DNA of 64,000 nucleotides from a virus: IMG/VR virus record IMGVR_UViG_3300042888_000580, positions 1 to 64,000 of that record, one strand, 5' to 3'. The notes under the pieces are model-generated. The model saw only the letters and a list, made by a program, of their open reading frames with translations. It was not told where the DNA came from and did not search any database. Positions 24,101 through 45,098 of this stretch are shown piece after piece. Made by a program: the position numbers and the translations under genes. The stretch's first letter is position 1, and each line of letters opens with the position of its first letter.

Positions 24101-26724
24101 CTGGATTAGCAACACGATTATATTATGATTCATTTACAGTGGATTGGTTGCTAAAAACAATCACATTAGTAAGTGCATTACCTATAGGCGATTCACTATT
24201 AGTAGAAGTATATGAAGTTGGTAACGGTGATCAATTAGAAAAATCTAATAGTCAAACTGACCCTATTAGACTCAATGATGTTACTGGATTTAATGAAATA
24301 TACTTAAACTGTAATTATAGTGCAACACTTACATCTGGATCCGGAGTTATCATACCCGGTACATCACCAATCAATGTTATTGCAACAGAAACAGACAGCA
24401 CAGAAAATTCTATATTATGTGATGATGTACGATATTTCACAATAAATGATCAAATTATATTCTACGGAGATGTGTTTGGGGGGATAGTAGCTGACACCCA
24501 TTATTATGTTAAGACTGTAAGTAACGTAACAAATAAAATCACAATATCAGAAACTAATCCAGGAGGAGTAGCAGGACCTACATTCGTATTAACTAGCGAT
24601 ATAGGTTCAATGGATATTATAATAGAAGTTGGAAGTGGAGCCCCTTGGACAGATCCTATAGTTTATCACAATGGTACTAAACTTATATTAGGACATACTA
24701 ATAGAGTTACTCAAACTTCTAGTGCTACTAATTCCATAACATGTAATACTACTAGTGGCATGGAAGTAGGTGAACCAATTGTGTTTAGCAATACAATTTT
24801 TGGTGGTGTTATAGATCCCCAAGTAATCTATTATATTAAAACAATTATTGATGCTAATGAATTTACTATTTCTGAAACACTCGGGGGTGCAGTATTAGTA
24901 TTGACTAATGCAGCCGGTGGTGCGATTGGCATTACTAATGACTATGCCTTTGGTATAGCAGATAACGGCACGTCAGCAAAAATAATATTTGCGGCACAAT
25001 ATGATGATACTGCAGATTATCTAACCTATACTGTATTTGGTGAAACATTCCCAGACCAGTATGGATATACTATACCAGAAGTACAAATAATTGAAGGTAA
25101 CGGGTCAATTGGGCCATTTGCTCTAACCAACTATATTGGTGATGATAACCCATTAAATGCAGTAGTAGAAATTAATGGAGTTCGTATTACTGACACAGAA
25201 TACACAATTAACGATACAGCAGATACATTGACTTTTACTACATTAACTCCATCATCTAGCGATACTATTGCAGTAACAAGTTATAATCTAACAGAACGTC
25301 AAGCTTTTAATACTCAGTATGATATAACAGGAACTACTGTTTCATCCATTGTCAATATTAATAATGAAATAACAGCACCCATAGTAACAACCTATGTTAC
25401 TGCAACCACAGCAGGTACTAATTTATTAACTTGTAGCGATACTAGTGGATTCATTGTAGATCAAACAATTATATTTCAAGGAACATCATTTGGTAATGTG
25501 TTAACAAACGGCACCGTGTACTACGTAAAATCAGTAACATTCCCGTATGATGGTACATTTACTATTTCATCAACATTGGGCGGCACAACATTTACATTGA
25601 CGACTGGTTCTGGGGTTATAATATCATATGTAGGTGGACAACCTGCAGTACGTGTTACTACTAGTAGCCCGCATGGATTAGCTTCTCCGACAGCAAGTGA
25701 CGAATTAATAAGAATAGACGGTACTTTGGGCTCAATTCAATTGAACAACAATACTTACTATGTCCACGTGATTAACGACACACAAATTGATTTGTATAAT
25801 ACACCATACTTGTCTGCCATAGGTGATGTCAATGATCCGGTTACAAGTATATCTTCATATACATCAGGTGGTTATTTGTGGATAGATGAAATATTTGTAG
25901 TTGATAGTATTTGGGAACAAAATAATGTTGACAGACTATGGGTTACTATTAACGGGTATCGTGTCCCGTCATCATCGTTGTACTTAAATGCTGATAATAA
26001 CTTGAGTATTTTGGTATCAATTATTTCAACAGATGATATTACTATAACAAGTATGATATCTAGTGCGACACCAAATCAATTGGTTTATTTACAAAATGTT
26101 AATAAGAACGGAAATGGATCGGTATACAGAGCAAATACTGATACTAGAACTTGGTTGGTTGAACCACTATATTATACAAATGAAATAATATATGTGTCGG
26201 ATGTAACTAGAATTACAGATACTTTAGTACAAAATGTTGTCGCACCGGCAGCAGTAGATGGTATTATAAGTATAGGACTAGATGCTGATAAAAATACTAT
26301 TTCTCAAGTAATAGTTTACAATACTACCACAAGTAGTTATGTAAATTCTAATAATTATTCCATAGTAATTATAGATTTAGTTCCAATTTTACAAATAACT
26401 GATGAGGTTACTGTAGGAAATAGCTTAATCATAACTACTATTGAAGGTAATTTAATATATATTAACGGTGAGCAAATTAGATTTAGTACAGTAGATTTAG
26501 TTAATAATACTATATCTGGGTTACAACGTGGTTCAAATGGTACCGGAATATTAGACTTTATACCGAAGTATTCTGAAGTATTTGGAATATTGTCTAATAA
26601 TTTATTACCTAGCGTAAATTACAATCTGACTTGGAACAGTAATGTTTACAACGTTAATGATGGTGATCCACTACAGATTAGTGTAACAAATGCGGCAATT
26701 TTCTTAAATTCGGGGGAGTCTTAA
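9196..26724 (+). CDS. Giant baseplate/tail structural protein (5,842 residues) at the gp7 position
   Basis: The N-terminus (TLNFLPEIFKTTTN, then QGYIGSRFGYG) looks like a conserved wedge-attachment region, and the gene sits where T4 has gene 7. T4 gp7 is about 1,000 residues, so this is roughly six times longer. Visible parts: FG-GAP-like blades at about residues 2255-2890 (seven FG-containing motifs such as GSESFGSAVAYT and VQFGTSVDTN); Asp-box-like SxxGxxW motifs at about 4590-4880 (SIDGIVWT, SLDGILWT, SINGIDWT); about nine copies of a small beta repeat at about 2480-2555, 3860-4350, 5060-5250 and 5400-5480; and two ISGL(Q/T)RG(S/V)NGT motifs near 3580 and 5775. No membrane segment or enzyme motif was recognised. 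It probably forms the outer baseplate and carries binding surfaces. The gp7 equivalence is inference. Confidence 0.75.
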   Translation: MATRIRTLNFLPEIFKTTTNSQFLNATLDQIVDQPNTKRIQGYIGSRFGYGVNAKNYYVTEPTKTRTDYQLDPGVVFLKKDTSTAQDFISYPGIIDGLKLEGALTGDNNRLFTSEFYSWDSFTDLDKIINFNQYYWIPEGPEAVTVSTETVYNATDYIITSTPNGYLVTATGQSQGSTNPSLTLLRGGTYTFNVNQASEFWIQGMPGITGYDPNQPNVQTRDVLGVDNNGAEVGIVTFTVPFKTAQDEYELPGNNRVDLVTTLLYANVDGVLLSSLTNGIDGITSIDGLTLMFYNNENETTFYTITYTGDITDPTITLVAGTTIPVEENITANFGTEYIGRTFYRTTGSVITLIPYLSAILDTLYYQDGTSSNKVGQIRLISSNTTNRIDVLTDIIGQANYTSPNGVVFTNGLKVILSGEIYPVSYENIRFYVEGVGTAIELIPVTDFVAPEPFTQGTYIPFDTTPYDIGNFDVNLYIPVLQDYITIARNSIDKNPWSRSNRWFHIDVINATATYTNNPELATLYATPDNKANRPIIEFYPNLRLFDAGVVGKPPIDFIDFRTTDAFNDVTGVAGQESYYPDVEVYTAYTGSIVGTTGTSTTISILSSAVTGAFQVGQYINDSTNVLPRNSQITAITGTTTLTLTVSWVGSQTIVSTSNESSFIANDIQNDSYSVFDGARIVFAADTTLNVRNKIYVVRFSTLVFGDTPVITLTEAEDGLVLTDEQTFAFRGYNYQGMDFHFDGTNWQESQQKTTVNQPPLFDILDNNGISFGDRDIYVGTSFAGNKLFAYGIGSGIDDPVLGFPLTYSSIDNIGDISFDVSLNSESFNYVSGTVPITQKVNTGYVYNYSDLTTSTRQLGWQTAVGPSVQYQIFEFDYFAANPTTTYTCDIAKLANTDSPWPTIQLFVNNKIQYSSDYTVETTATQTIVTFSVPNPEIDTVVEILLLSDQVSETAYYSIPINLNNNPLNEDIVSVNVGDIRGQYQSSFYNNPNTTGNVFGANNYRDLGNMVPYGNRIIQNSASLVLPGAFLRKQNQNLFNALMYNGREYITFKTLLVDTINTTDFTERLSPATMLDNALDVITSAKTDSNSFFWSDMLPSKAAYITNTYSFANALDVSIYPLSKIYNFATANYNGVLVYLTNTLGIITQLINGVDYTISSDSPSLTVTLDLAPGDQITIKEYNQTYGSYIPNTPTKLGLYPSTIPTVILDTAYYQPTYFIVGHDGSYNKLYGDYIDGVLIDFRDQVLLEFEKRIYNNLKLSNVIPIQEYEVLPGFFRDTDYSYDEILQIYSTSFLDWVGQNRINYKTQFYSANNEFTYNYNQSGNKINREVIPQGYWRGVYEYFYDTSTPDTSPWEMLGFTDQPTWWETRYGPSPYTSDNLVLWNDLAQGIDWNNGNPVVIPQAIRPELLQVLPVDSEGNIVSPFVSIVGNYSNTSFNRDWIVGDVGPAEFSYRRSSSWPFDLMRILALTKPAEFFNLGVDIDNYKFNEEFNQYLVNDRSHLVISDVEIYGNGTAKTSYINWIVDFEKQVGIDATTNITDLLYNVDVRLVYRLAGFSDKNLLRFYVEKSTANSNNSSLLIPDESYQVLLYDNQPFDKIVYSGVVVQLTNTGYKVYGNSQTNAYFKILAPKINGNYERVSVQGLSVQLARDYYTTPEVVAYGTEFITVQQVSQFLEGYGRYLASQGVLFDQIESGLTVSWRQMVAEYLYWAQSGWEVGSIVNINPASNLISINKDSYIVQPLTLQRQNFILNQNLYPIQSTDLSVIRDGTLFTAQPLNQGDTVAYGQFNISNFEHGIVFDNVTVFDDVIYNLITGLRQNRITLRGAKTAEWNGTIDAQGFVLNQDNVLDWDKTVKYTTGSIVKYKNKYWIALTIIQPKELFEEREWKETDYNEIQKGLLPNTSTRSYESTIYYDVNRANLENDADLLSFSLIGYRPRDYLALVDLTDITQINVYKNFIKNKGTLNAASAFKGANLPQGGINYDIYENWAIKSGEFGGVLNSNFIDFKLNQNLLTGNPSIVGLTNGITTAGVQQEVPLYSLYNYGRPVTSTDVLPLLPTDTPSTLFPYAGYANFNDMRIAAYYYFNLANSTSPRGVLTPLSELYVGQYVWIADYQGTWQVMTPASLGAVVFAKNNLNGTATITFNNPHGLTKYQPFAIVNFNDSLNGYYIVNTVIDLNSVLVNVTLAPSITIVTGQGIGFRFQSQRVDNPSDIIDLPLLNTEFVKNKVWVDTNNDGDWAVYRKSINYTYDSELVKDGSESFGSAVAYTDTLGYLIGDADAGVTYRYSFNVLFDRYDLKQTLTGVASFGTTITYANDIFVVSQPTGTPEVYVYQLVVNTTVDELQSLQSAISAPGGVTEWGRAIAISGDTNWLYISAVTSSTSLVYVYRYSTVTEEYEQSATIDLGLTNADNFGYSLSTDYYGDTVIIGTPDQNYDGSTENWGYTYVYDRTVQNFEAQYTSITYVPQPFTLAWTPSTTSITVTASDATLDRFTCASSSSLVIGDPITFTGTVFGGIALNTVYYVLAKPSGTTFTISTTRGGSTLQLNNGSGSMTATQQDTPLYVSVNGTLIDDSTYFNIGSTITIVQGLNAGDIITVSSNNFVLAQTLTTENTPRIGVQFGTSVDTNTYATEILVGAPFELNSQNQEGVVYRYTNGGGKYGMIIGTTATNITTTRTILVNGYMVVLTAGNATVVATAINQANITNLQATAVDGKLIISLLDNALASPNDKLNVTVLDTATWSELGFSTYTQTQVITDPHVQGTTQFGNVVKFNEFNSFVVSAPTATRYQATTFDSTDDEDYDNDTLFDNNTTQWIDTYANAGAVYMFDYLSVYNESLINCGNFVYAQSTNDINEIYGSQPMYGHAVEFNASRVVIGTPNFKPDTVAGQIITYFNSIGAPDWSVYRSSSPIVDINRIQNIQLYSAITNDTLDNLDYIDPLQGKILGSVRENIDVVSNVDPAGYNSPNNTQGSMVWGSSQVGQIWFNTSTTRFVNYHQNDIVYNSKWWGQIFPGSDVTVYSWITSNTLPISYAGPGTPYNVDTYSIEYTLNATGVLTPVYFYWVRNTNIIFTLRGKTLADSIIQSYIASPINSGISYFVPLEQDIFALYNCANNINANDTVLHIGYSTGTNDDVSHSLYNLIRTNYADDFLPGLPTTNGADVPESLYDRMLDSLCGVDESGAVVPDPFLPKPVQYGIYARPRQSFFVDRLLALKNYLTYANEILSQYPISETRRSLFLFTEGATNPSTVDNPNWSGSVLPFYATPDYWYYINWWATGYDDNTKSALQVPIYADLATINATAGLIVTVAANGDGKSETYVYTNLNTWDRIGLQDGTIEFSSNLWDYATARLGFGDNFFDTTPYDTYPSQETRSIVRALNEEIYTNELLIFRNKSLILLFEFIQSETIESQNYLPWLNKTSFMDVGHTIRELLPLEVFQSDNQDFLAGYINEVKPYHVVIKEFLFKYTGSDLYAGTITDFDLPAQYNTDIQQFITPELVYSNPSGANQYLPSDPIWETAPYSEWFNNYGLGITGVDDYQITVLASYVSLNSPAMAVDNAYGFPINGTILIGDELIGYSNVNRSNNTLSGLTRGVNGTPVTVHIPGEIITINLPAILVLNGGRGYAEPPRVVAYIDTTIYPEPRRVAVLQVVMNLDSILRVDVIDPGDGYAVLPEIIIDPSVSVTFTSDDVNLLSNTISLPSPLLQTGDLITYTIGTSTTPVGGLDVDQYYYVNVLESTPTFVVALYTTYRDAINDSDRVILFDTGLGVNNVLNVSARASCVSTSLPIRENQITLRFDRTTYNSELTDWVGGAFYGSFYAGLYNNSERIASSSIGLQSTQPDIDTILASAAGAVFEIEDVTNVEVIIWSSRTRIVSAINTSTNVITITASDGGASLINSDSITNPTIGFYIGMPIKFIGAVTGNITVETTYYIKSLVDGNKFTLSASISSGVPGAVLSMAGTILGSAGLTGYVGEVTNTAVVTIFYPGILTATATSSITNGISVPLTGSGLGGTTGFYTNLPVFFVGTVFGGVIENERYYVTTVIDDETFTMSTTEDPVMVSVTNTTASTDYITCDDATGLSFNDPIIFNSMSVSGSAVSTFGNIADGTIYYVSAIINDTNFQISTVPNGGTFGLADQAAGTGTGCTGTNQKDIVQLTTATGSMTCNVGLPVSPGQVTGQEFTFYPTSATTVSSPAFTQGNLITRTIKNALADGDYLSLESETGGTTNMYVNMPVRVAASYGGLSTGTTYYVVNIGTVTTEVIQTTSANVLISTGTAGFYVDMPITFTGSTLGGTIENTLYFVKTVNVNGTDFTITDSQGGATLALSNDTGSMTVTGAPYIKVSATLGGGVLALSNASTSTTLTQYPTSSPSFDVSWILGGYSVDITGAGAGYAINNTFTVLGTALGGTTPTNNLVMTVNTIGTNGQVTSLINSGTPPEIVEQYYLKVISTTECEVYSDSQLQIPVTGINFPFTAGDYALLPEPFYFNQSIVKYNNRVYQCIISNNDTEFIFGKWEELRSDSRKLNALDRIVGYYQPTINMPGLDLTQLVDGIIYPNSTYKDNAFPPSEEYTLDTILQDQLFSPTEVDVTSILWNGTTYFAPANSPTYSDITYSTTGTTWLSNKVAGQPIALTDIVYANSKYVMSSQNNVTPILVSIDGIVWTTAGLESGSVSIDNTSLNSVAYFNGIYVAVGDNIVSSGDAYIWLERYRFTDMVLYGVSAITINNFDGFIAVGVGPDYSVIPTITQSVILKSLDGILWTNITPSASAETLYGASSGNNTIVVVGNNGAIFTSINGSNWNDISTGSANLRDIVYSDSLGLFVIVGESGFIGTYDGSTFSVETSGTTENLNSVIWNSDLSEFIVTGNNNVILKSINGIDWTISNIFVTDPTVYDVQGDAFTSGYGPEELVPGVVTDNLTMVVTTRPGTNWDVATYQHVGYNVVSTTLTPITNGQLIFSFDGLVLIPAQLSVFQIDGTTGLATRLYYDSFTVDWLLKTITLVSALPIGDSLLVEVYEVGNGDQLEKSNSQTDPIRLNDVTGFNEIYLNCNYSATLTSGSGVIIPGTSPINVIATETDSTENSILCDDVRYFTINDQIIFYGDVFGGIVADTHYYVKTVSNVTNKITISETNPGGVAGPTFVLTSDIGSMDIIIEVGSGAPWTDPIVYHNGTKLILGHTNRVTQTSSATNSITCNTTSGMEVGEPIVFSNTIFGGVIDPQVIYYIKTIIDANEFTISETLGGAVLVLTNAAGGAIGITNDYAFGIADNGTSAKIIFAAQYDDTADYLTYTVFGETFPDQYGYTIPEVQIIEGNGSIGPFALTNYIGDDNPLNAVVEINGVRITDTEYTINDTADTLTFTTLTPSSSDTIAVTSYNLTERQAFNTQYDITGTTVSSIVNINNEITAPIVTTYVTATTAGTNLLTCSDTSGFIVDQTIIFQGTSFGNVLTNGTVYYVKSVTFPYDGTFTISSTLGGTTFTLTTGSGVIISYVGGQPAVRVTTSSPHGLASPTASDELIRIDGTLGSIQLNNNTYYVHVINDTQIDLYNTPYLSAIGDVNDPVTSISSYTSGGYLWIDEIFVVDSIWEQNNVDRLWVTINGYRVPSSSLYLNADNNLSILVSIISTDDITITSMISSATPNQLVYLQNVNKNGNGSVYRANTDTRTWLVEPLYYTNEIIYVSDVTRITDTLVQNVVAPAAVDGIISIGLDADKNTISQVIVYNTTTSSYVNSNNYSIVIIDLVPILQITDEVTVGNSLIITTIEGNLIYINGEQIRFSTVDLVNNTISGLQRGSNGTGILDFIPKYSEVFGILSNNLLPSVNYNLTWNSNVYNVNDGDPLQISVTNAAIFLNSGES
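15958..17870 (+). repeat. FG-GAP-like repeat region coding for a predicted beta-propeller
   Basis: Seven segments share an FG core followed by a hydrophobic strand, then G(T/A)P-type and VY-type strands, as in integrin-alpha FG-GAP blades. Examples are SFGSAVAYT, SFGTTITYA, NFGYSLSTD, QFGTSVDTN, QFGNVVKFN, plus WGRAIAIS and YGHAVEFN variants. One copy of the small beta repeat is inserted between blades four and five. Seven blades would close a ring, but the fold is inferred from the pattern only. Confidence 0.55.
20780..22250 (+). repeat. Cluster of small beta repeats in the giant structural gene
   Basis: Five consecutive segments of about 70-90 residues share a pattern: a Thr-rich strand, GF(Y/S)xx(M/L)P(I/V)xF, a GTxFGG(V/T)IExxxYYV core, then FTIS/FTMS and a closing strand rich in L, S, T and G, often ending GSMT. 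Further copies occur near 16630-16860, 24380-24640, 24700-24930 and 25390-25640. These look like repeated spacer or binding domains expanded by duplication. Confidence 0.65.
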
Positions 26725-33826: not shown

Positions 33827-35080
33827 ATGGATAATATTAACAACAACAAGCAATTAAGAATATATGATGATAATGGAAAATTTATAAGAGTTTCTGTTGA
33901 TGAAGCGATTGCAAACAGATATAATTATTGGCAGAATTGGAAATGTAGCGCTGGCGTTCAAAATTTATATATTGATTTTGACGGTAACATTTGGGTATGT
34001 AATACTGCTAGTTCATTCATAGATCGTTTCAACCATGACAATTGGAAAGAATTGTTATTCTCTAAGATTGATAAATTTGGAAAAAATATTCCATCCGAGT
34101 GGTGGCATACGGGAGAAGAATTTCTAAAATTAGAATCAGACTTTAAAAAGAATGGCAAGGCATATAAAAAAATAATCCCAGTAACAGAAGAAAATAAAAA
34201 TAATATACCTGGGTTTTTGGGTAATATAAATGAAAGTTTTTCTCTAGCTAAAGAGTGGTTTGTATGTCCATGGAATTCATGTAGTTGCGGTGCTGATGTA
34301 GTATTGAGCAAAGTCAAAACTAAAATGCATAGGACAACTCTTGCTGTTAACAATGAAGGATGGCATGGGCGAGACCGTACTGAAAATGATTATGTTGATA
34401 ATATAACTGATCCAGTTGCAGTTGAATTAAATTATTCTATGCCCTATCAAATTTTATGGGACCTTAGCAGAAAATGTAATTATGACTGTTCCTATTGCTG
34501 GCCCGGAGTACATAATAAAACTGATACTCATAAAGATTATGATTTACTAATACGTACTGCTGATAAGATTATTGAAGACTGGGCGCATAATAAAACCATC
34601 AGATGGAACTTTGGTGGAGGTGAACCTACATTACATCCTAACTTTTTAGATTTTGCCAAGTACCTTAAAGGTAAAAATCAGTGGACTATGGTAACTAGTA
34701 ACGGAACCAGAGATCATAAATACTGGGGGGAACTAGCAAAATATATGAATAGCATATTATTAAGTGCTCATTTTGATGGATTAACCGAATACAATGATGA
34801 AGATAGATTTGTCAAAAACATTAAAGTAATATGTGAACATTTTGATGAACATGACGATGATCATTGGTTAGAAGTGAAATTAATGGCTCCTCCTAAATAT
34901 ATAGATAGAGCATTAAAATTAAAAGAGAAAATATTAAATTTAGATTTATTAAACAGATCGGGTGCAAATGGGAGAATTAAAGGTGTTGTAAGTCTTGTTC
35001 CAATAAGAGGGATGCAAAATCCAGGAGAAGTAGTTCGGTATACTGAGCAACAACTTGAATTATTTAAAAATCAAACATAA
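33827..35080 (+). CDS. Radical SAM protein with SPASM-like cysteines placed before the core
   Basis: The radical SAM motif is C217-x3-C221-x2-C224 in RKCNYDCSYCWP, with GGGEPT some 40 residues later and TSNGT after that. The preceding 200 residues hold a second cysteine set (WKCSAGVQN, WVCNTA, CPWNSCSCGAD). This closely resembles the C-terminal part of the preceding enzyme (WKCYAGAEQIIVD...), so an auxiliary-cluster domain appears to lie in front of the catalytic core. It may have arisen by fusion of the tail of one enzyme to the core of another. It overlaps the next gene by one base (TAATG). Confidence 0.85.
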   Translation: MDNINNNKQLRIYDDNGKFIRVSVDEAIANRYNYWQNWKCSAGVQNLYIDFDGNIWVCNTASSFIDRFNHDNWKELLFSKIDKFGKNIPSEWWHTGEEFLKLESDFKKNGKAYKKIIPVTEENKNNIPGFLGNINESFSLAKEWFVCPWNSCSCGADVVLSKVKTKMHRTTLAVNNEGWHGRDRTENDYVDNITDPVAVELNYSMPYQILWDLSRKCNYDCSYCWPGVHNKTDTHKDYDLLIRTADKIIEDWAHNKTIRWNFGGGEPTLHPNFLDFAKYLKGKNQWTMVTSNGTRDHKYWGELAKYMNSILLSAHFDGLTEYNDEDRFVKNIKVICEHFDEHDDDHWLEVKLMAPPKYIDRALKLKEKILNLDLLNRSGANGRIKGVVSLVPIRGMQNPGEVVRYTEQQLELFKNQT

Positions 35081-37404
35081 TGAAAAAAATAAACTTTGAA
35101 GAAAGACTAAAAGATGCGGATCATTTAGAAAGAATTAATGTTGCATCTACACGAGGATGTCCAACTTATATTTTAGAAAATATGATCAAATGGGACACAA
35201 TGGCAGCTGTTGTAGAGGCTGCTGCGGTTAGTTCTAAAATTGATAAATCATTTATTGAACTTGCAATATTAAGATTTCCTGAAATTGATAATACTAGATT
35301 TTGGAGTGAAAGAGATAGACGACAAAGAATAACATTAATGTCTGATGATATTGCAAAACAAGAAGAAGAAGCAACAAAGATGGTTGTTGGTGATCGGGAT
35401 CAAATTATCTTAAATCATATACTTAAAAAAGATTCAAATCTAAGTCATGCAATATCACATTTAGGAGATGAACAATCTAATGTAGATTCCGGATATATTC
35501 ATAAAGAAGTTGAATGGGCAGACACTTCTAAATTTAGAATTGGACTTGTAGTGGCGCCAGCTTGGGGCAAACTATTTCCACCTTATAACCTCGCTAAACT
35601 AACAGGATTATTGAGACACTTAGATTATAGTGTTAGAGTATACGATCTTAATATAGAATCTTTCCATCATCTTCAAGACACTACTGGAATTGATTATTGG
35701 GCATCAAATAGATATTTTTATTGGAATAGCTCGGAAAGTTTTAGCGAATTTATATTGCCCGACTTGAAGGACGTATTTGATAGAACATTATTTAATATTC
35801 TTCAATCTAATCCTAAGGTCGTTGGATTTAGTTTGTATGATACAAACATCCATGCTAGTCTATATCTAATACGGGAATTAAGATATATGATGCCCGATGT
35901 ATGTATTGTGGTAGGAGGTCCCGGTGCTATTAGCAACGGTCATTTATTAACAACTCTTATAAATTACAAATTTATAGGAGAAGCTGAAGAAAACTTTGTA
36001 AAATTTTTGGAAGAGTTAACCGATGATAACGATGTTGGAAGCAGTCAAACTATAGGGACTGTAAATAGTAAATTAGATTTAGATGTATATCCCTATCCGG
36101 ACTATTCTGATTATAATTTTAGCAATTACGAACACAGCTACGGAGTTAGTATTGAAACGTCTAGAGGGTGTGTTGCAGACTGTAGTTTTTGTGCCGAAAC
36201 ACATTTTTGGAAATTTAGATCAATGACTCCGGAAAGAGTAGTAGATGAAATAGAATATCAACAAAATAATTTAGGTGTTAGTAGATTTTGGTTTGTTGAT
36301 AGTTTAGTTAATGGTAATTTAAAAAATTTCCAAAAACTGGTTGATCTAATATTAGAAAGAAATATTAAAATACATTGGAACTCTTATGCAAGATGTGACG
36401 GAAGAATGACTGCTGAATTCTTACAAAAGGTTACAGATAGTGGATGCACATGTCTGAGCTATGGAGTAGAATCAGGCAGTCAAAAAGTTCTTAATGATAT
36501 GCGTAAGAAGATTGACATATGGGAAGTGGAAAACAATTTAAAAGATTCTAAAGCATCGGGAATGTTTGTTCACATTAATTGGATGGTAGGATTTCCTACA
36601 GAAGAACCGATTGACTGCTTACATAGTTTTCAATTACTATTCAATTGTAGAAATTGGATTGATAATATAAGTCCAGGTTTTGGAGCATCACCGCCCCAAA
36701 GTATTGCACACTGGGATACTAATTGGAAAGATTATGGAATGAATTGGATTGAGAAACCCTACGATAACAATTTGTTTAACTCATGGCATACTGATAATAA
36801 TACTGCTATGCATAGATTTTTAAGAATAAAATTAAACCATGTGTGGTTAGATATAATCAATTATTATTCTGATTCTGCTATGATTAATGCTCAACGATAT
36901 CACAATATACAAGATTTTTATACTTTCACCGGTACTAAAAATGTAACAGACTATGTAATATATGATCAATATGTTAACTTGAATAGAAACACAGACAATA
37001 CATTTTTTGCTAGCATAACTAACGAATATTTTGCTTTGCTATACGTTATATACAAGTACTTTGGAGCTTTTACATTTACATTTAAGTGCAATGCAGAAAC
37101 TGATTTTAATACTTTTGGTGATTATATTTCTAGAATGTACGACTCTGATTTAACGTTTGATATAGACTCTACTGGCAACTATAATATAAAGTTGACACAT
37201 AAATTTGTCCATGATACGGTAACTCCGCACTTAAAAGAAACCTACCGATTGGAAAGAGAAAAGGTCAATTATAGCTTTGATGGTGTTTTTGAAGAAACAG
37301 GTAATATTAATAATTGGACTGAAGAAGAAATTCAAACAAAAGAAACTGTTCACGAACAGTATAGAAATAAATCAAAAAAAGTTTTTAAAATTTCAAATGA
37401 CTAA
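35080..37404 (+). CDS. B12-binding-type radical SAM protein (BchE/Elp3-like layout)
   Basis: Residues 1-145 are helical and of unknown function. Residues about 155-320 follow the cobalamin-binding Rossmann layout (GLVVAPAWGKLFPPYNLAKL, VVGFSLYDTN, CIVVGGPGA). The core has RGCVADCSFC with C364-x3-C368-x2-C371, then a RFWFVDSLVNGN segment and LSYGVESGSQKVLNDM, which are typical of the B12-radical SAM superfamily. The final 200 residues are extra. Family members often methylate unreactive carbons or rearrange rings. The DxHxxG cobalamin motif is not obvious, so true B12 binding is uncertain. The next gene starts inside its last codons. Confidence 0.85.
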   Translation: MKKINFEERLKDADHLERINVASTRGCPTYILENMIKWDTMAAVVEAAAVSSKIDKSFIELAILRFPEIDNTRFWSERDRRQRITLMSDDIAKQEEEATKMVVGDRDQIILNHILKKDSNLSHAISHLGDEQSNVDSGYIHKEVEWADTSKFRIGLVVAPAWGKLFPPYNLAKLTGLLRHLDYSVRVYDLNIESFHHLQDTTGIDYWASNRYFYWNSSESFSEFILPDLKDVFDRTLFNILQSNPKVVGFSLYDTNIHASLYLIRELRYMMPDVCIVVGGPGAISNGHLLTTLINYKFIGEAEENFVKFLEELTDDNDVGSSQTIGTVNSKLDLDVYPYPDYSDYNFSNYEHSYGVSIETSRGCVADCSFCAETHFWKFRSMTPERVVDEIEYQQNNLGVSRFWFVDSLVNGNLKNFQKLVDLILERNIKIHWNSYARCDGRMTAEFLQKVTDSGCTCLSYGVESGSQKVLNDMRKKIDIWEVENNLKDSKASGMFVHINWMVGFPTEEPIDCLHSFQLLFNCRNWIDNISPGFGASPPQSIAHWDTNWKDYGMNWIEKPYDNNLFNSWHTDNNTAMHRFLRIKLNHVWLDIINYYSDSAMINAQRYHNIQDFYTFTGTKNVTDYVIYDQYVNLNRNTDNTFFASITNEYFALLYVIYKYFGAFTFTFKCNAETDFNTFGDYISRMYDSDLTFDIDSTGNYNIKLTHKFVHDTVTPHLKETYRLEREKVNYSFDGVFEETGNINNWTEEEIQTKETVHEQYRNKSKKVFKISND

Positions 37405-38707
37405 CAAAACATTTCATATTCAAGAAAGCAAAGTATTTTGCATGGCTCCGTTTATGCACATACATAATGTTCCGACAGGAGATATACTACCTTGCTGTAT
37501 AAGTTTGGGCGGGAGCATGGGAAATCTATATAAAGAAAGTATTCAAGATATTTGGAACAATGAAAATTATAAAGAATTACGACAAGATTTATTAAATGAT
37601 AAAAAATCAAAACATTGTACAAGATGTTATAAAGAAGAAGAATGGGGAAGTACATCAACAATACGCCGAAGCTTTAATGATAGGTTTAAAGATTTTTATG
37701 AAGAATTAATTGAAAATAATACTGAGACTGACGGAACAATGAGTAGTATGAAATTTCTTAAATGGGATTTCAGATTCAATAATTTGTGTAATCTAGCATG
37801 TACCGTATGTCATCCCACGTATAGCAGTTCATGGGTACCTATTATGAAAGCCATTGATCCTAACTATGCTGAGGATCAATTTAATAGCAGTAAAAAACAC
37901 AAAGAAAGCTTCATTGAAACTATAAAATCTCAAGTAAACAATGTTGAAGAAATATATTTTGCTGGTGGAGAACCGTTACTTCATACTGAACATTATGAAA
38001 TACTAGAATATATTAAAGAATCAGATAGACTAGGAAAAATAGAATTTGTGTACAGTACTAATTTAACTACAATGACTTATAAATCAACTGATGTTTTAGA
38101 TTACTGGAAACACATGGAAAAATTACGTGTATTAGTAAGTTTAGATGAAGTTGATGTGGATAGATTATTTTACATACGATATCCAGCCGATGCAAATAAG
38201 ATATTAAAAAATATTAAACTATTAAAAGATAATTTAACAGGCAGCAATCGCCATTGGGTAATCACTCCAACATGGAGTCTGATGAATATACATCGGATAA
38301 AAGACATATTGGAATATTTTTTAGTAAATGACCTTTTCCCGCATACGTTTTACAATACTAGTATTTGGGAATCTGATTATCATAATATTGTTTTATTATA
38401 TCCCGAATACTTTTCAATACGGTCCGCTAGTAAAGAATGGAAAGAACATTTACGTATTAAAATTTCCGAGTATGAGCAATGGTATTACAATACATTATTA
38501 CCACTAAAATCCTCACAAAAATTACAGGAAGATTGTAAAAATGTATTTGATAATAGGTTAAGTATAATTAAAAATGCATTAGAAGAAACTGTTGAGTTTG
38601 ATGTTAACTGGTATATGGGTTATTTGACTAAATTAGATAAAGAAAGAAATACTGATTTTAAAAAAACCTTTCCTGAGTTACAACATCATACAGGAGAAAG
38701 GCTATGA
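37397..38707 (+). CDS. Radical SAM protein with N-terminal twitch domain
   Basis: The start at 37397 gives MTNKTFHIQ and overlaps the previous gene by eight bases; an earlier in-frame ATG at 37277 would add 40 residues coded inside the previous gene and reads as a shadow. Residues 15-80 hold FCMAP, PCC (C33, C34), IQDIWNN and HCTRC (C74, C77), the cysteine set of an N-terminal twitch domain. The core motif is C131-x3-C135-x2-C138 (LCNLACTVC), with FAGGEPL near 190. This is the twitch-domain radical SAM family. The next gene has the same plan. The substrate is unknown. Confidence 0.87.
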   Translation: MTNKTFHIQESKVFCMAPFMHIHNVPTGDILPCCISLGGSMGNLYKESIQDIWNNENYKELRQDLLNDKKSKHCTRCYKEEEWGSTSTIRRSFNDRFKDFYEELIENNTETDGTMSSMKFLKWDFRFNNLCNLACTVCHPTYSSSWVPIMKAIDPNYAEDQFNSSKKHKESFIETIKSQVNNVEEIYFAGGEPLLHTEHYEILEYIKESDRLGKIEFVYSTNLTTMTYKSTDVLDYWKHMEKLRVLVSLDEVDVDRLFYIRYPADANKILKNIKLLKDNLTGSNRHWVITPTWSLMNIHRIKDILEYFLVNDLFPHTFYNTSIWESDYHNIVLLYPEYFSIRSASKEWKEHLRIKISEYEQWYYNTLLPLKSSQKLQEDCKNVFDNRLSIIKNALEETVEFDVNWYMGYLTKLDKERNTDFKKTFPELQHHTGERL

Positions 38708-40257
38708 ATACTAGTGAATATTGGTTTGATAAACTTCACAACTGTTTTGATTCTAATGAACGAGTTGAACTTATTACAAGTACAGATTTTCCTGAATTGA
38801 TTACTGCTATGATAACACATGATGTTGAATCAGAGGTTATATTAGCAGGTATGAAAAATCCTCATTGTTCAGAAGCCTCAATTGAACTAGCAAAAACAAG
38901 ACTGAATCAAATAAATCCTCAAATACAAGACCTCCCGAAAAATTCAACATTTTGTCCAATTCCATGGGTATCTACTGGCATACAACAAAACGGAGATTTA
39001 AGAATTTGTTGTCAACAAATATATCACCCGTATGGTAAACTAATAGAAAACGGGGAAATGTTAAACGTTAAAAACACTGATATAAATCAATCACGAAATA
39101 ATACAGTATTTAAAGAATTACGTGCAAGTATGTTGCGCGGAGAGAAACATCCGTCATGTAATTTATGTTGGAAAGAAGAAGAAACAGGTTTATCTAGTAA
39201 AAGATTACACAGTATTAATATGTATGGCCACGTAGAATTTATTGATAATACTGATAAAGATGGAAGTATAGATATAGAAAAATTTCCAATAAAATATATT
39301 GATATTCGTTTTGGAAATTTATGCAATTTAAAATGTAGATATTGCGGCCCAACTGATAGCAGTCTGTGGTATGACGATTTTGTTTCTATGTCATACGAGG
39401 GAGAAAAGCCTGCAACAGCCCCTATGTCTTTTTATGGTGGGAAAACTTATAATGTAATCAAAAAAAATACTAATTATACCATTGATTCTTCAGATTTTGA
39501 ATGGTATGAATCGGCTGAATTTTGGGATCAAATTGAAAAACTAATTCCCTATATTGACCGATATTATTTTACCGGTGGTGAACCGACAATTAATAAAATA
39601 CATTTTAAATTACTACAAAAAATTATAGACATGGGTTACAGTAATCGGGTTCATTTGGATTACAATTCAAATATGTTTGCTATACCAAATAAGCTATATA
39701 ACTTATGGGAAAAGTTCAGATCCGTAGGAATAGGATGCAGTATAGATGCAATTGAAGATTTAGCATACTATTTACGTTATCCAAGTACTTGGGATGCACT
39801 AGAACAAAATTTAGATGTACTAGGTAACAATCCAACCAAATCTATTTACGGGACAATATCTACTACGGTAAGTATATTCAATGTATATCATTTTTTAGAA
39901 ATTTCTAAATGGTTAATAGAAAAAAATTATAAAAGAATTAGAAAAACACCTAGCTATCATGTACTAGAGGGCCCGTCTCCCATGAGTATACAAGTACTAC
40001 CTATTAACGTAAAAAATCAAATACAAGAAGCATATGAAATTTTTTACAAAGAAATAGATGAAAAATATGGACTAGAAATGGGTAATATATTTAGGCATAG
40101 CTATAGTGGTTTAATCAACTATATGTTTGCTAAGGATAATAGTCATCTGTTGCCAAAGTTAGCTGAAGATACCCGTAGATTAGATAAAATTAGAGGTCAT
40201 AAATTAGAAAATTATATACCATGGCTGTCTGATATATTAAATAATTATAACGACTAA
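38704..40257 (+). CDS. Radical SAM protein with N-terminal twitch domain, second copy
   Basis: The first 78 residues are helical (ELITAMITHDVESEVILAGM) and are not found in the preceding paralogue. Then come FCPIPW (C84), ICC (C102, C103) and SCNLC (C152, C155) of the N-terminal twitch domain, and the radical SAM motif C207-x3-C211-x2-C214 in LCNLKCRYC. FTGGEPT follows further on. The plan matches the gene before it, which it overlaps by ATGA, so the two arose from one ancestor or work as a pair. It lies directly upstream of the 1,317-residue repeat protein. Confidence 0.87.
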   Translation: MNTSEYWFDKLHNCFDSNERVELITSTDFPELITAMITHDVESEVILAGMKNPHCSEASIELAKTRLNQINPQIQDLPKNSTFCPIPWVSTGIQQNGDLRICCQQIYHPYGKLIENGEMLNVKNTDINQSRNNTVFKELRASMLRGEKHPSCNLCWKEEETGLSSKRLHSINMYGHVEFIDNTDKDGSIDIEKFPIKYIDIRFGNLCNLKCRYCGPTDSSLWYDDFVSMSYEGEKPATAPMSFYGGKTYNVIKKNTNYTIDSSDFEWYESAEFWDQIEKLIPYIDRYYFTGGEPTINKIHFKLLQKIIDMGYSNRVHLDYNSNMFAIPNKLYNLWEKFRSVGIGCSIDAIEDLAYYLRYPSTWDALEQNLDVLGNNPTKSIYGTISTTVSIFNVYHFLEISKWLIEKNYKRIRKTPSYHVLEGPSPMSIQVLPINVKNQIQEAYEIFYKEIDEKYGLEMGNIFRHSYSGLINYMFAKDNSHLLPKLAEDTRRLDKIRGHKLENYIPWLSDILNNYND

Positions 40258-40275: not shown

Positions 40276-43200
40276 ATGCTTAGAGATGTATTTTATTACG
40301 GTAGTAAACCAAACGTTCACCCAAGAGAAAAGTTTGCAGTTGACTTAGCTGACGCTAGACAACAATGCACCACTGAACATTTTTGGATAATCAACGAATA
40401 TTGTGATTATACAAATTTTGATTGGGATTGGGACTTTGATTTCTTGCCGGATGACGAAGTTTGGACAGGTGAACACAACAATGTATGGCCAAATAAACAA
40501 AATAAAGATAGCGGTACTTGGCTATGCTCACATCAATATAGCGATATAATTATATATCGTGCTGATGTTGAGCCTATACTCAGAAAAAATGTAAAAAATA
40601 CTAATTGGGTAGTACTAGATAAAATTGATGAATTAAAGTTTGATTTTAGTTGGGAACCCAATCCATATGACCCTCCCTACATATATAAATGGGGTTGCAA
40701 ATTCTATCCTACAGAAATAAAACATTATGTAGAATATCACGTTGAGGGTGCAACTAATGTAAAATACATGCCAGAGACAGTAGAGTTATTACCTGAATGG
40801 GCTAACTGGGTAGAAGTACAATCAGTAGATAAATCAAGTTTTGATTTTAGTTGGAGACCCGACCCACGTGAGCCTGCATATATCTATACTTGGGGTAATA
40901 AATATATATCCTCTGAGTTAAAACCCACAGTAGAGTATCATTGTGTAGGAGCTACTGAACGAAAGTATATGGACAACTCAGTTGCTGTATTACCTGAATG
41001 GGATCGGTGGGTAATATGGAACTCTATAGATAAGTTTAATTTTGATTTTAGTTGGAGACCTGACCCACGTGAACCTGCATTTATTTATGTATTTGGTAAT
41101 ACGCAATATCCAGCAGAGATTATGCCAACAGTTGAATATCATGTACCGGGTGGAACAGAATATAAGTTTATTAATGATGAATCAATGAAAGCTAAATTGT
41201 TACCTAACAGTGCTAGATTTGAACATTTAGAAAATAGTGATGGAATAAATTATTCATGGGTTCCTGATCCATGGAGTCCTCCTTATATCTATGTTTGGGG
41301 TAATCAATGGAATAAGCCAGAAGATAAAATATCTATACAATATGTTGTTGAGGGTGCAACAGAATACAAATACATGGAAGAACGTGCCACACGTAAACCA
41401 TATATGGACAATTGGGAAATACCTCCTTATGTCATACAGAATAGTTTTGATTTCAGTTGGGAACCAAACCCGCAGGATCCAGCCTACATATATCAATTTG
41501 GCACTATACATCAAAAGACAGGTGGTCCTCGCTATACAGTACCAGGTGCAACAGAATTAAAATACATTGATGCTGTTAAAGCACAAGTAGTAGCATGGAG
41601 ATTTACAAATTGGTTGATTCCAAAAAATGTAGATCAGGCAACATTTGATTGGAGTTGGCACCCGGATGATACAGAACCAGCATACATCTATCAATTCCCT
41701 AGTACATGGAGTAAAACAGGTGGACCAAAGTTTACAGTTGAAGGTGCGTTTGAAACAAAATACTTAGATTACCCTATAGCAAAAGTAAAACAAGATATGA
41801 CACATTGGTCTATACCTGCAGGATTAGATACTAGTGAGTTTGATTTTAGCTGGCATCCAAATATAGATGATGAGCCTTTGTTTTATCAATTTGGAACACA
41901 ATGGCAAAAAACAAATGGCCCGATGTTTACTGCACCCGGCTGTGACGAAACTACTCCAATCAAATACATGGATATACTTAAAGCAAAACGTATACCTGAT
42001 AAAACAAATTGGATTATACCTGCAGGATTTGATGAAACTAAATTTGACTTTAGTTGGCATCCTGACGCTACAAGCCCTCCCTATATCTATCAGTTTGGTA
42101 CACTATTAGATGATGTTCATTTAGAAGACGGACCCAAATATGTAACCCCAAACAATGATGGAACCGTTGTATTAATGGAAAACACATTATTATCAGATGA
42201 GGTAGTACAATACCCGCAATATTATATTGACACTACATTAGAAATATTGATAGAACAACATAAGGATGAAATCTTTTGGGCATTACGTAAAAATATTAAC
42301 TATACTAAATTTGATTTCATTTGGCAACCAACTAAAGAGCAAGCATTCAACATCAATACGTTTGGATCACCTGACAGTGAATTGACACAAACATACTTAG
42401 TTAACGGTAAGATGTGGCAAAAAGGTTATAGAGATATTAGTTTTATTGAAAATACAAAACTAGATGAAGAATATCTATCTAAATTATTTAAACAAGTAGA
42501 TGCTTTCTTTGTAGATAAAGGAAATAAAGAATCAGCTACAAGATTTGAACAATTAAAAATACAATTTCCCACACTACAAAAGACACGTTACCTAAACAGC
42601 TGGGTAGATACAATCAATCGCTGTATCAACAAATCTACTACAGAACTATGCTGGATACTTAATAGTGAATTAGATTATACCAACTTTGATTTCAACTATT
42701 ATCCTAATCCATGGCAAATGACAATGGTACATGTGTTTGGAACTCAATGGAGTCATTGGGGCAGTACGTTTATGGTTAATAAAGAAACATTTGCAGAAGA
42801 TACAAAATATGTAAAAATTATAGAACACTTGAGTAATCTAAACTTTGTCAAAACAAAACGTGCTATCGCTAGCAATTGTTTATATGATGTTTACTTAATT
42901 GACTACAGTAATGACGGAGTTACTGATATAGTGTCATTGATTGAAAGTAAGACTAAACGTGAAAATGTTTACACAATCAAATATGAAACAGATTACTTAA
43001 CCACATTGAAGAACATGTTGTATGAGTTAGGTATTAAAAAGGACCATTACATCTGGGTATGTAGTTCAATTTGTGATTACACTAACTTTGACTTTACTTA
43101 TATATGTGATCCATTCTCTTTAGAGCAATTGCATGTATTTCCTAGTGACAAACAAAAGTTTGGTGACACATTCTTCATCAATGTAAACAAGTTACGTATT

Positions 43201-44229
43201 CTTGTAGAAGATTTGGATAAGTTAGAAAGTATAGAGAAGATTAATTTTAATCAGCATCAAAAAGTAAAACGTTTGCCTGCCCCTAGTTTTGTTACTGATG
43301 CTGATACACATTTGAATTTCAAAAAACATAGTTATAACTTCCCTTATGCTGTGTTTACTACAAGTGATAATTTAATCGCACCAGACATTAATGATGAACC
43401 AATCAGTATGTGGTCTAGTGAATCAAAGAACATATTGATTACAAATATGGGAGGCACACGTATTGTTGTACCCAAAGAAGCTAACGAATATGTTGAGAAA
43501 GAATTGTATGATTATCCATACATTGCTAAATCAACTAAGATAGGACAGTCAAAACCACTGGATATAGTCTTCCTAAGCAACGGTGAATCTGTAGCTGACG
43601 AGAACTACGAACATTTACTGAACGTGACTAAAGGACTGAAGAATCGTGTTGTTAGAGTTGATGGTGTCAATGGTCGTGTTGCTGCCTATCATGCAGCCGC
43701 ACTAGCAAGTCAAACATCTTGGATGTTTACTGTGTTTGCTAAGTTAAAAGTCAATAGTAAGTTTGACTGGACATGGCAACCTGATAGATTACAGATACCT
43801 AAACACTATATCTTCTATGCTAGTAATCCTGTTAATGGATTAGTATATGGTCACCAAGCTATGATTGCGTACAACAAACAGATTACATTGGGCAATATGG
43901 GTAAAGGTCTTGACTTTACATTGGATAGTGAGCATGAAGTTGTTGAAATTAATTCGGGTGTAGCAAGATATAATACAGATGAGTTTAGCACATGGCGTAC
44001 AAGTTTCCGTGAAGCTATTAAGTTACGATTAGATGATAGTACAATAAGCAGACATAGATTGAAAGTATGGTCAACTGTAGGTGAGGGAGACTACGCCCAA
44101 TATAGTATCAATGGTGCGTTAGATGCTGTAGAATACTATGAATCAGTCAATGGTGAACTAGACAAATTACGACTAAGTTATGATTGGCCTTGGTTGCAAG
44201 AGTATTTTAATACTAAATACAAGTTATGA
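40276..44229 (+). CDS. Large repeat protein (about ten FDFSW repeats) with C-terminal glycosyltransferase-like domain
   Basis: Residues about 120-700 contain eight or nine units of 60-70 residues, each with W(V/I)I..., FDFSW(R/E/H)P(D/N)P, (Y/F)IY(Q/V)(F/W)G, then VxGATExKY(M/I)D. Divergent copies follow (DYTNFDFNYYPNPW near 805, DYTNFDFTYICDPF near 940). Residues about 1095-1317 form a domain shared with the gene at 31916: VDGVNGRVAAYHAA, KFDWTWQPD, NGLVYGHQA, TWRTSFREAI. The repeat unit resembles the middle of this same domain (FDWTWQPD...IPKHYIFYA), so the array looks like many copies of part of an enzyme. The IDGDN site of the relative is replaced (MFTVFAKLKV). Function is unknown; a carbohydrate-related scaffold is inferred. 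Confidence 0.7.
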   Translation: MLRDVFYYGSKPNVHPREKFAVDLADARQQCTTEHFWIINEYCDYTNFDWDWDFDFLPDDEVWTGEHNNVWPNKQNKDSGTWLCSHQYSDIIIYRADVEPILRKNVKNTNWVVLDKIDELKFDFSWEPNPYDPPYIYKWGCKFYPTEIKHYVEYHVEGATNVKYMPETVELLPEWANWVEVQSVDKSSFDFSWRPDPREPAYIYTWGNKYISSELKPTVEYHCVGATERKYMDNSVAVLPEWDRWVIWNSIDKFNFDFSWRPDPREPAFIYVFGNTQYPAEIMPTVEYHVPGGTEYKFINDESMKAKLLPNSARFEHLENSDGINYSWVPDPWSPPYIYVWGNQWNKPEDKISIQYVVEGATEYKYMEERATRKPYMDNWEIPPYVIQNSFDFSWEPNPQDPAYIYQFGTIHQKTGGPRYTVPGATELKYIDAVKAQVVAWRFTNWLIPKNVDQATFDWSWHPDDTEPAYIYQFPSTWSKTGGPKFTVEGAFETKYLDYPIAKVKQDMTHWSIPAGLDTSEFDFSWHPNIDDEPLFYQFGTQWQKTNGPMFTAPGCDETTPIKYMDILKAKRIPDKTNWIIPAGFDETKFDFSWHPDATSPPYIYQFGTLLDDVHLEDGPKYVTPNNDGTVVLMENTLLSDEVVQYPQYYIDTTLEILIEQHKDEIFWALRKNINYTKFDFIWQPTKEQAFNINTFGSPDSELTQTYLVNGKMWQKGYRDISFIENTKLDEEYLSKLFKQVDAFFVDKGNKESATRFEQLKIQFPTLQKTRYLNSWVDTINRCINKSTTELCWILNSELDYTNFDFNYYPNPWQMTMVHVFGTQWSHWGSTFMVNKETFAEDTKYVKIIEHLSNLNFVKTKRAIASNCLYDVYLIDYSNDGVTDIVSLIESKTKRENVYTIKYETDYLTTLKNMLYELGIKKDHYIWVCSSICDYTNFDFTYICDPFSLEQLHVFPSDKQKFGDTFFINVNKLRILVEDLDKLESIEKINFNQHQKVKRLPAPSFVTDADTHLNFKKHSYNFPYAVFTTSDNLIAPDINDEPISMWSSESKNILITNMGGTRIVVPKEANEYVEKELYDYPYIAKSTKIGQSKPLDIVFLSNGESVADENYEHLLNVTKGLKNRVVRVDGVNGRVAAYHAAALASQTSWMFTVFAKLKVNSKFDWTWQPDRLQIPKHYIFYASNPVNGLVYGHQAMIAYNKQITLGNMGKGLDFTLDSEHEVVEINSGVARYNTDEFSTWRTSFREAIKLRLDDSTISRHRLKVWSTVGEGDYAQYSINGALDAVEYYESVNGELDKLRLSYDWPWLQEYFNTKYKL

Positions 44230-44288
44230 TTGTATGAAGTTAAGTGAAACGGATTCAAGACGGGAGTTCGATTCTCCCCTCCTCCACC

Positions 44289-44312
44289 TAAGTGTATGAT
44301 GTATATTTAGGT
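44289..44312 (+). other. tmRNA intervening loop removed during maturation
   Basis: ACCTAA just after the acceptor strand pairs with TTAGGT just before the coding piece. In the precursor this extends the seven-pair acceptor stem by six pairs, capped by a loop of about 15 bases. In two-piece tmRNAs this segment is cut out. Confidence 0.75.
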
Positions 44313-44421
44313 GGGGGAGAACTGGTAATCGATTGGGTCAAGAGTAATGAAATGGACAGTTCGGCAATGCCGAAGCCGTTAGGATTGGGGTATCCCGATT
44401 GTAGAAGCAAAAAAAGTAACC

Positions 44422-44454
44422 GCAAACGACTCACAGTTCGCATTGGCCGCGTGA
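44422..44454 (+). other. tmRNA tag reading frame (ANDSQFALAA, stop TGA)
   Basis: GCA AAC GAC TCA CAG TTC, then codons for ALAA, then TGA. The AND start and ALAA end match proteolysis tags recognised by ClpXP. GTAACC directly precedes the resume codon. The ten-residue length is like betaproteobacterial tags. Confidence 0.9.
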
Positions 44455-44493
44455 GCAGCCTAGGGTAAGACATACCTCGTAACAGAAACTCAG

Positions 44494-44519
44494 ATAGGGA
44501 CTTTGGTCCCTATTTTTTT
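44494..44519 (+). terminator. Intrinsic terminator after tmRNA
   Basis: ATAGGGAC pairs with GTCCCTAT around a four-base loop and is followed by a run of T. It ends the tmRNA transcript. Confidence 0.9.
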
Positions 44520-44531: not shown

Positions 44532-45098
44532 ATGAACATTAAAGAAATCATCACTGAAGAAATAGTAGACGAGTATCGTATTAGCGGCCCCGTTGACATC
44601 AAAAATTATATTAGACATGGTAATGCTTTTAAAGATTCTATGTTGTTTGTTAAAACTCCAATGGATCAATACAATGTCAGATATATGGAAAACTCAATTA
44701 GAGGTGGTAATAAAATACATGATTATTTTCTATATGATAAAAAAACCGATAGATGTATAGGGTTGTTTACTTTAGAAATGGTACCACTAAAACTTAATAA
44801 AATCTTACAACCGGGAATTAAAACTGTAACTCCACACATGGCATTGGCACCCGAAGCACAACGTCAGGGAATAAGCACACAAGCCTACAGTACCTTTTTA
44901 CAAGGCGGTCCGTGGGTATTTGTCACGGATCACCATACTAAAGGTGCATCTAAATTGTGGGATTCTTTAGCAACAGGTAATAATATTAGTCTATATGTGA
45001 GTGCTAAAACAGGTGAACTTTTAGACCCTGCGAAGCATCATGAATGGACAGACTTACGTTTATTGGGTCCTAGGGATAGATTTAAGTTAGATAATTAG
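44532..45098 (+). CDS. GNAT-like acetyltransferase family protein
   Basis: The 188-residue protein has the segment MALAPEAQRQGISTQAYSTF (residues about 110-130), which fits the GNAT acetyl-CoA motif (Q/R-x-x-G-x-(G/S)) at the start of a helix, followed by WVFVTDHHTKGASKLWDSL, where GNAT folds place their later strand and helix. The N-terminal half has strands suited to the first part of the fold (DYFLYDKKTDRCIGLFTLE). The substrate is unknown. No good ribosome binding site is visible and a late promoter box ends only four bases away. It stands alone between the tmRNA and the exported-protein genes. Confidence 0.55.
   Translation: MNIKEIITEEIVDEYRISGPVDIKNYIRHGNAFKDSMLFVKTPMDQYNVRYMENSIRGGNKIHDYFLYDKKTDRCIGLFTLEMVPLKLNKILQPGIKTVTPHMALAPEAQRQGISTQAYSTFLQGGPWVFVTDHHTKGASKLWDSLATGNNISLYVSAKTGELLDPAKHHEWTDLRLLGPRDRFKLDN

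Follow-up and report, generated by a model that had tools for sequence, protein, structure and literature searches.

What does a phage gain from a tmRNA gene that is encoded in two permuted pieces, and what use is made of the stretch between the pieces? These questions are raised by a locus in 64,000 nt of viral DNA (the window: the whole stretch analysed), which belongs to a 76,106-bp linear virus record. Since some related records measure 267-349 kb, this record probably covers only part of a large, myovirus-like genome. In tmRNA biology as published, the precursor is cut into two pieces, the RNA is charged with alanine and works with SmpB, a tag is added and the product is degraded (PMC3985003, PMC11915505). 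Judged from the sequence, the best explanation for the whole of 44230-44491 is a functional phage-encoded circularly permuted tmRNA gene of the beta type (probability about 0.8).

The two-piece gene and its parts

A complete circularly permuted two-piece tmRNA gene was identified at 44228-44517 (+) by Rfam and ARAGORN. Two Rfam models are covered over their whole length: RF01850 (beta_tmRNA), with 106.1 bits (cut-off 84, E 2.8e-31), and RF04321 (tmRNA_permuted), with 104.4 bits (cut-off 47, E 2.8e-19). The covariance-model check proposed with the initial annotation thus gave scores above both cut-offs. ARAGORN calls a permuted tmRNA with the tag ANDSQFALAA, identical to the tag read earlier from the sequence.

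All parts are on the + strand. The acceptor piece (44230-44288; 5′ end approximate), which carries the 3′ amino-acid acceptor, is encoded first and abuts the stop codon of an upstream gene of 1317 aa. It was delimited by Rfam alignment, covariation and homologues found at the same place. It includes one P2 strand, GATTCAA (44252-44258; partner 44333-44339; covariation), and a canonical T arm (44262-44278; stem GGGAG/CTCCC, loop TTCGATT; Rfam alignment and covariation). These are followed by the 3′ strand of the acceptor stem, CTCCTCC (44279-44285, with U70 at 44283; covariation), and by the discriminator and CC (ACC, 44286-44288; read from the sequence). The terminal A is not encoded; the beta_tmRNA consensus is likewise ACC followed by c.

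The intervening sequence (44289-44312) separates this piece from the coding piece downstream. It is a 24-nt hairpin, predicted from the fold and from comparison with relatives to be absent from the mature tmRNA; in the fold, acceptor stem and intervening sequence form a single 19-bp hairpin. The coding piece (44313-44491; Rfam; approximate 3′ limit set by the terminator) is the mRNA-like domain with the tag. It opens with the 5′ strand of the acceptor stem, GGGGGAG (44313-44319, with G3 at 44315; Rfam alignment and covariation), so that all seven pairs of this stem are formed, G3-U70 included. It also carries the second P2 strand, TTGGGTC (44333-44339; covariation). The tag frame given by ARAGORN (44422-44454) opens with Ala and closes with ALAA: ANDSQFALAA is encoded by 44422-44451, followed by TGA (44452-44454). 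A rho-independent terminator-like hairpin with a T run was found by a terminator scan at 44492-44519, and homologues likewise end in a hairpin and a T run.

The initial annotation had described a two-piece permuted tmRNA with the acceptor half first and a hairpin joint. Every part that it described is present at the place given, and the cut points that it had inferred, 44288 and 44313, are the ends of the pieces according to homologues and covariation. One surplus base is found in the TGGTTTCGA stretch (TGGTAATCGA), as in L232, L238 and L242; this counts against a functional gene.

Covariation between the pieces

The minimum-energy fold of 44228-44345 (z -3.48; none of 200 shuffles equally stable) has exactly the helices that had been described. 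Covariation was analysed in an alignment of 22 distinct sequences, taken from the window, from related phages, from two Achromobacter phages and from one bacterium. It covered the acceptor, T and P2 helices; the PK1 hairpin of the coding piece appears in the Rfam model alignment. Changes on both sides were found in 14 of the 19 pairs of the three helices, a count that is inflated by kinship among the sequences. The proportion of paired cells is 95.9%, versus 72.0% in shuffles. The covariation score is 0.625, versus 0.200 in shuffles, and was reached by none of 500; it was destroyed when the helix partners were slid, as a control.

The acceptor stem is paired in 100% of cells, and G3-U70 is invariant (22/22). 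Changes on both sides affect all five pairs of the T stem and six of the seven pairs of P2 (90.9% of cells paired). The seven-pair acceptor stem and seven-pair P2 claimed earlier are therefore both present and backed by covariation. Because P2 joins the separate pieces, its covariation (e.g. A-U to U-A, A-U to G-C) is direct evidence that both pieces work together. Both the slide control and the many doubly changed pairs speak strongly against an artefact. In five records (L227, L231, L236, L240, L242), the T loop TTCGANT is replaced by GGCAGTG, GGCAGCG or GGCAGTT, with an intact T stem.

A conserved place among phage genes

That the gene is phage-encoded, as had been claimed, is borne out by its phage neighbours and by permuted tmRNAs found at the same place in related phages. 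The neighbours include genes with PHROG and other matches to baseplate wedge, baseplate hub/tail lysozyme and terminase large subunit, and also to thymidylate synthase, a nucleotide-sugar epimerase and several radical-SAM families. The upstream gene (1317 aa, 40276-44229, +), whose homologues precede a permuted tmRNA on the same strand, has no family match; nor has the downstream gene (188 aa, 44532-45098, +) in a protein family search. Just upstream of the 1317-aa gene, four radical-SAM proteins (one B12-binding, two SPASM) are encoded by 33827-40257. A fifth is encoded further on, at L124:735-1718 in the rest of the record. This cluster could possibly be involved in phage-encoded peptide modification or other chemistry. 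A single ORF of 5842 aa, with no Pfam match in either half, occupies 9196-26724.

The relatives comprise 33 records: 32 viral loci collected with the 1317-aa gene as query, and that of L222, to which the downstream gene led. In 22 of these 33 records, a permuted tmRNA scores above the curated cut-off. It lies on the same strand, downstream and within 6 kb of the 1317-aa homologue in 17 of the 21 records in which it could be placed, and at only 12-13 nt in six of those 17. It is absent throughout L191 (G003), L201 (G013) and L202 (G014), despite 2.7-3.9 kb past the 1317-aa homologue. The tag ANDSQFALAA recurs in several related phage loci (e.g. L224-L228, L239).

This conservation bears on the origin of the gene. 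Genomic islands often integrate at tmRNA genes (PMC11915505), so that a host gene of no use to the phage might have been picked up through imprecise excision or recent capture. Such an origin is very improbable and largely refuted: no close bacterial copy was found, and the gene stands inside a phage operon, keeps its place in related phages and displays compensatory changes.

What the RNA may do for the phage

A scan found no -10/-35 site on the + strand just upstream of the tmRNA, which also counts against a functional gene. Because no promoter-like site just precedes the gene and a terminator follows it, the RNA is likely to be co-transcribed with the upstream gene, and would end at the terminator. 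The 19-bp hairpin would be cut at 44288/44289 and 44312/44313: RNase P would act on the coding-piece side and a tRNA 3′ processing nuclease on the other. The two pieces would be held together by the acceptor stem and P2, the CCA would be completed by the host, and alanine would be loaded by alanyl-tRNA synthetase via G3-U70. Since no SmpB gene was found in the 23 related phage records searched, the SmpB of the host would have to serve. The tmRNA would then enter stalled ribosomes; A and then ANDSQFALAA would be added, the ribosomes would be freed and the product would be destroyed by host proteases. The likeliest and simplest benefit is extra rescue capacity during infection, as damaged or truncated mRNA accumulates.

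The lack of SmpB in the records searched would also suit a decoy, whose tRNA-like domain would titrate SmpB or stalled ribosomes and so block the trans-translation of the host, since a phage RNA of this kind must compete for the host's SmpB. An RNA of mycobacteriophage DS6A that consists of little beyond a tRNA-like domain is cited as an inhibitor of tmRNA (PMC4131195, PMC11915505). A decoy is nevertheless unlikely here: the window gene keeps a whole mRNA-like part, superfluous in a decoy, with a tag of ten residues that closes with LAA, and the identical tag is found in several related loci. Ribosome rescue by a complete tmRNA is thus preferred.

Tags, hosts and abundance

The initial annotation had held phage copies of tmRNA to be uncommon and the tag to be a clue to the host; neither view finds support. 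Two-piece phage tmRNAs are published and abundant in IMG/VR: 53 ARAGORN calls were reported in the phage set of January 2021 (PMC9004378), and a pattern scan of IMG/VR matched at least 120 loci. ARAGORN calls permuted tmRNAs in roughly 95 of those listed.

Comparisons with GTDB and with Burkholderiales give no host. The exact pattern of ANDSQFALAA with a TCN serine is found in 0 GTDB species genomes. A sample of 300 Burkholderiales genomes contains 13 confidently permuted tmRNAs: none has ANDSQFALAA and 11 have ANDE-type tags. Assignment of a host through the looser pattern ANDSxFALAA was rejected, as bacteria with this pattern have one-piece tmRNA only.

Permuted tmRNAs, several of them of the beta type and all unannotated, are present in cultured phages of Pseudomonas aeruginosa, Xanthomonas, Stenotrophomonas and Acinetobacter. 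The tmRNAs of these hosts themselves are generally one-piece. The phage permuted lineage is therefore independent of the present host, and the best fit to the beta-type model does not name a host; nor can phage tags serve to name hosts. Through the window gene, phage permuted tmRNAs gain a lineage that is well supported and independent of the host. The genes of XacN1, UF_RH6, X1, Rb1, QDWS359, QDWS595, SM1 and BUCT628 (L428, L429, L430-L435) are permuted, although most of the hosts have one-piece tmRNA; no tmRNA annotation overlaps these genes in the records examined. Unannotated permuted tmRNAs are also found in the Achromobacter phages JWDelta (L002:2994-3378; tag ANDDYIRLAA, structured spacer of 208 nt) and Axy11 (L003:2996-3285; tag ANDDYIRVAA, structured spacer of 114 nt). 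For JWDelta, ARAGORN proposes a long tag, which was set aside; the frame aligned by Rfam, ANDDYIRLAA, was preferred.

Could the tag itself be the purpose? Under redirected tagging, the phage tag would alter the route or rate of degradation, or would let tagged proteins escape it. This is possible, at rather low odds. It agrees with the lack of ANDSQFALAA (TCN serine) in GTDB genomes and with the wide variety of phage tags, 27-residue ones included. It agrees poorly with a tag that keeps the ALAA end, the usual ClpX-type end, and whose departure from host tags is confined to the middle. Extra rescue capacity thus remains the preferred benefit. The very long tags, ANVNKTVTVSGKNVKFSARTAKEALAV and others like it, have about 27 residues; they were seen in L223, L232, L233, L030, L098 and L113, and are conserved between phages.

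Open reading frames in intervening sequences

In the window, the spacer is a bare 24-nt hairpin. Six relatives (L224, L225, L226, L229, L238, L242) have a longer intervening sequence with an ORF at the same genomic place. In each, a Shine-Dalgarno-like AGGA lies a few bases past ACC, and the stop codon falls on the first base of the coding piece or close to it. A 4-codon ATG frame in the 24-nt spacer of the window was considered as a remnant of such cargo and rejected, as it is missing from relatives with the same 24-nt spacer.

A second scan of IMG/VR, whose pattern consisted of acceptor, Shine-Dalgarno and ATG only, matched at least 120 loci. A coding piece was found 83-383 nt downstream in 96 of the listed loci (among L278-L397). 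These 96 loci hold 73 distinct inserts, most of them with an ORF of 22-122 aa, which fall into about 44 unrelated ORF clusters. When one record per cluster was examined, 41 of 44 had a permuted tmRNA above the curated cut-off, the exceptions being the three longest inserts. As the scan pattern did not impose an open frame, openness could be compared with dinucleotide shuffles of the insert interior. The frame has no stop codon until at most 26 nt remain before the coding piece in 69 of the 73 distinct inserts (9.3 expected, sd 2.6), in 41 of the 44 cluster representatives (4.2 expected, sd 1.8) and in 28 of the 31 inserts of at least 120 nt (0.9 expected, sd 0.9). Among the matches listed, 69 of the 73 distinct inserts thus have an ORF preceded by a Shine-Dalgarno sequence. 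In 47 of the 96 listed loci, the ORF ends exactly one base before the coding piece.

The insert ORFs appear to be under purifying selection: dN/dS is 0.08-0.46 in the ten clusters with enough differences, values that are indicative, since sums over pairs from one cluster are interdependent. One further cluster gave 0.87 (five differences) and two others were uninformative. The product of the L327 insert is clearly a thioredoxin (PF00085, E 4e-21) and another cargo is a CxxCxxCC protein (best E 1.3e-6). In the family search, most insert products matched no family; by inspection, many are peptides of 22-26 aa with a single membrane-spanning segment.

None of 399 Burkholderiales genomes has a gene-bearing spacer of this pattern. 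Among the cultured phages that were examined, the spacers (27-127 nt) look structured and have no convincing Shine-Dalgarno ORF. The 97-nt spacer of L231 comprises two T-arm-like hairpins, GTGGTTCAATTCCAC and GAGGTTCGAATCCTC.

Apparent exchange of inserts between tmRNA backbones

Closely related inserts are found in distant tmRNA genes. L337 and L362 have inserts with 95% identity over 383 nt, whereas their coding pieces and acceptor pieces are each only 71% identical, the same level as random pairs of coding pieces (median, 71%). Those of L292 and L368 are 97% identical, versus 79% for the coding pieces and 67% for the acceptor pieces. Conversely, one identical 52-nt acceptor piece stands before eight unrelated ORFs.

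The limits of the exchanged unit are suggested by L223 and L226, which share an identical 52-nt acceptor piece. L223 is of the window type (CTCCTCC, 24-nt hairpin, GGGGGAG), whereas L226 has CAGGTCC, a 122-nt insert with an ORF, and GGGCCTG. As both stem and insert differ behind the same acceptor piece, the unit that is exchanged appears to be the acceptor stem together with the insert.

Two cargo proteins were traced in IMG/VR. The 122-aa cargo was found at 16 loci, two of which are cut by contig ends; the other 14 are full or nearly full matches, and 13 of them are enclosed in a tmRNA, with five or more backbones represented. The remaining match (L449:1501-1851; 67% identical) is outside any tmRNA and apparently part of a longer protein; it may be a source or a sink of the cassette. 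The 104-aa cargo was found at four loci, all inside a tmRNA. Taken together, phage permuted tmRNAs of the beta type very probably use their intervening sequence as a gene slot, in which cassettes encoding proteins of 22-122 aa are swapped between tmRNA backbones. The window is the short form of this exchangeable intervening sequence.

A possible link between maturation and translation

The ends of the inserts tend to pair with each other. The duplex formed by the first and last 13 nt has a mean energy of -6.06 kcal/mol, versus -4.92 (sd 0.15) when ends are combined across other loci, and none of 1000 permutations was as good. In this stem, the Shine-Dalgarno sequence lies in one arm and the stop codon in the opposite arm. 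The arms may correspond to the processing stem that all these tmRNAs possess. The start signal would then be masked in the uncut precursor, and cleavage would release a minimal mRNA that ends one base past the stop codon. In turn, tmRNA might act on such an mRNA, and a feedback would result. Translation of the cargo is perhaps coupled in this way to tmRNA processing or to rescue load, a tentative proposal.

Comparison with known systems

The window gene resembles the permuted tmRNAs of betaproteobacteria (RF01850, RF04321) in many respects: acceptor piece, hairpin spacer and coding piece in this order; G3-U70, T arm, P2 and a tag ending in ALAA; ACC without an encoded A; and a spacer that extends the acceptor stem. 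It differs from them in being phage-borne within an operon, in its tag ANDSQFALAA, not found in bacteria, in one extra base before the TCGA motif, and in the sequences of P2 and of the stem, which have diverged with compensation.

Among phages, the Methylophilales phage Melnitz and SAR11 phages (PMC9004378) likewise carry permuted tmRNAs and, probably like the source of the window, are aquatic myophages. The Melnitz tmRNA is alphaproteobacterial in type and lies beside a glutamine riboswitch and an early promoter (PMC9004378), whereas that of the window matches the beta-type model and follows the 1317-aa gene. PMC9004378 mentions no protein gene in a spacer. The tmRNAs of mycobacteriophages, Streptomyces phages and Bacillus phage G are also phage-encoded but are one-piece and belong to unrelated phages.

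The intervening sequence is defined in the 2025 tmRNA database, where one holds a tRNA-Ala gene and another a repetitive element (PMC11915505). Those unusual spacers are single cases, whereas the phage spacers harbour unrelated protein genes by the dozen, whose starts and stops keep fixed positions; the text of PMC11915505 mentions no open reading frames in intervening sequences. No published description of ORFs in tmRNA intervening sequences was found in the open-licence literature, a scope within which absence is not proof. Two-piece phage tmRNAs are thus known; the exchangeable gene-bearing intervening sequence of the relatives is apparently new, with strong support from sequence.

Such a slot would surprise specialists of both tmRNA and phages. 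If it is real, a gene for a structural RNA also serves to carry cargo, and dozens of unannotated small phage proteins could be found by position alone. For phages, the old question of what a permuted tmRNA gene is good for would also receive a testable answer: the by-product of maturation would be an mRNA. Cultured phage systems for the tmRNA part are provided by Pseudomonas phage SM1, Xanthomonas phage XacN1, Alcaligenes phage QDWS595 and Achromobacter phage JWDelta.
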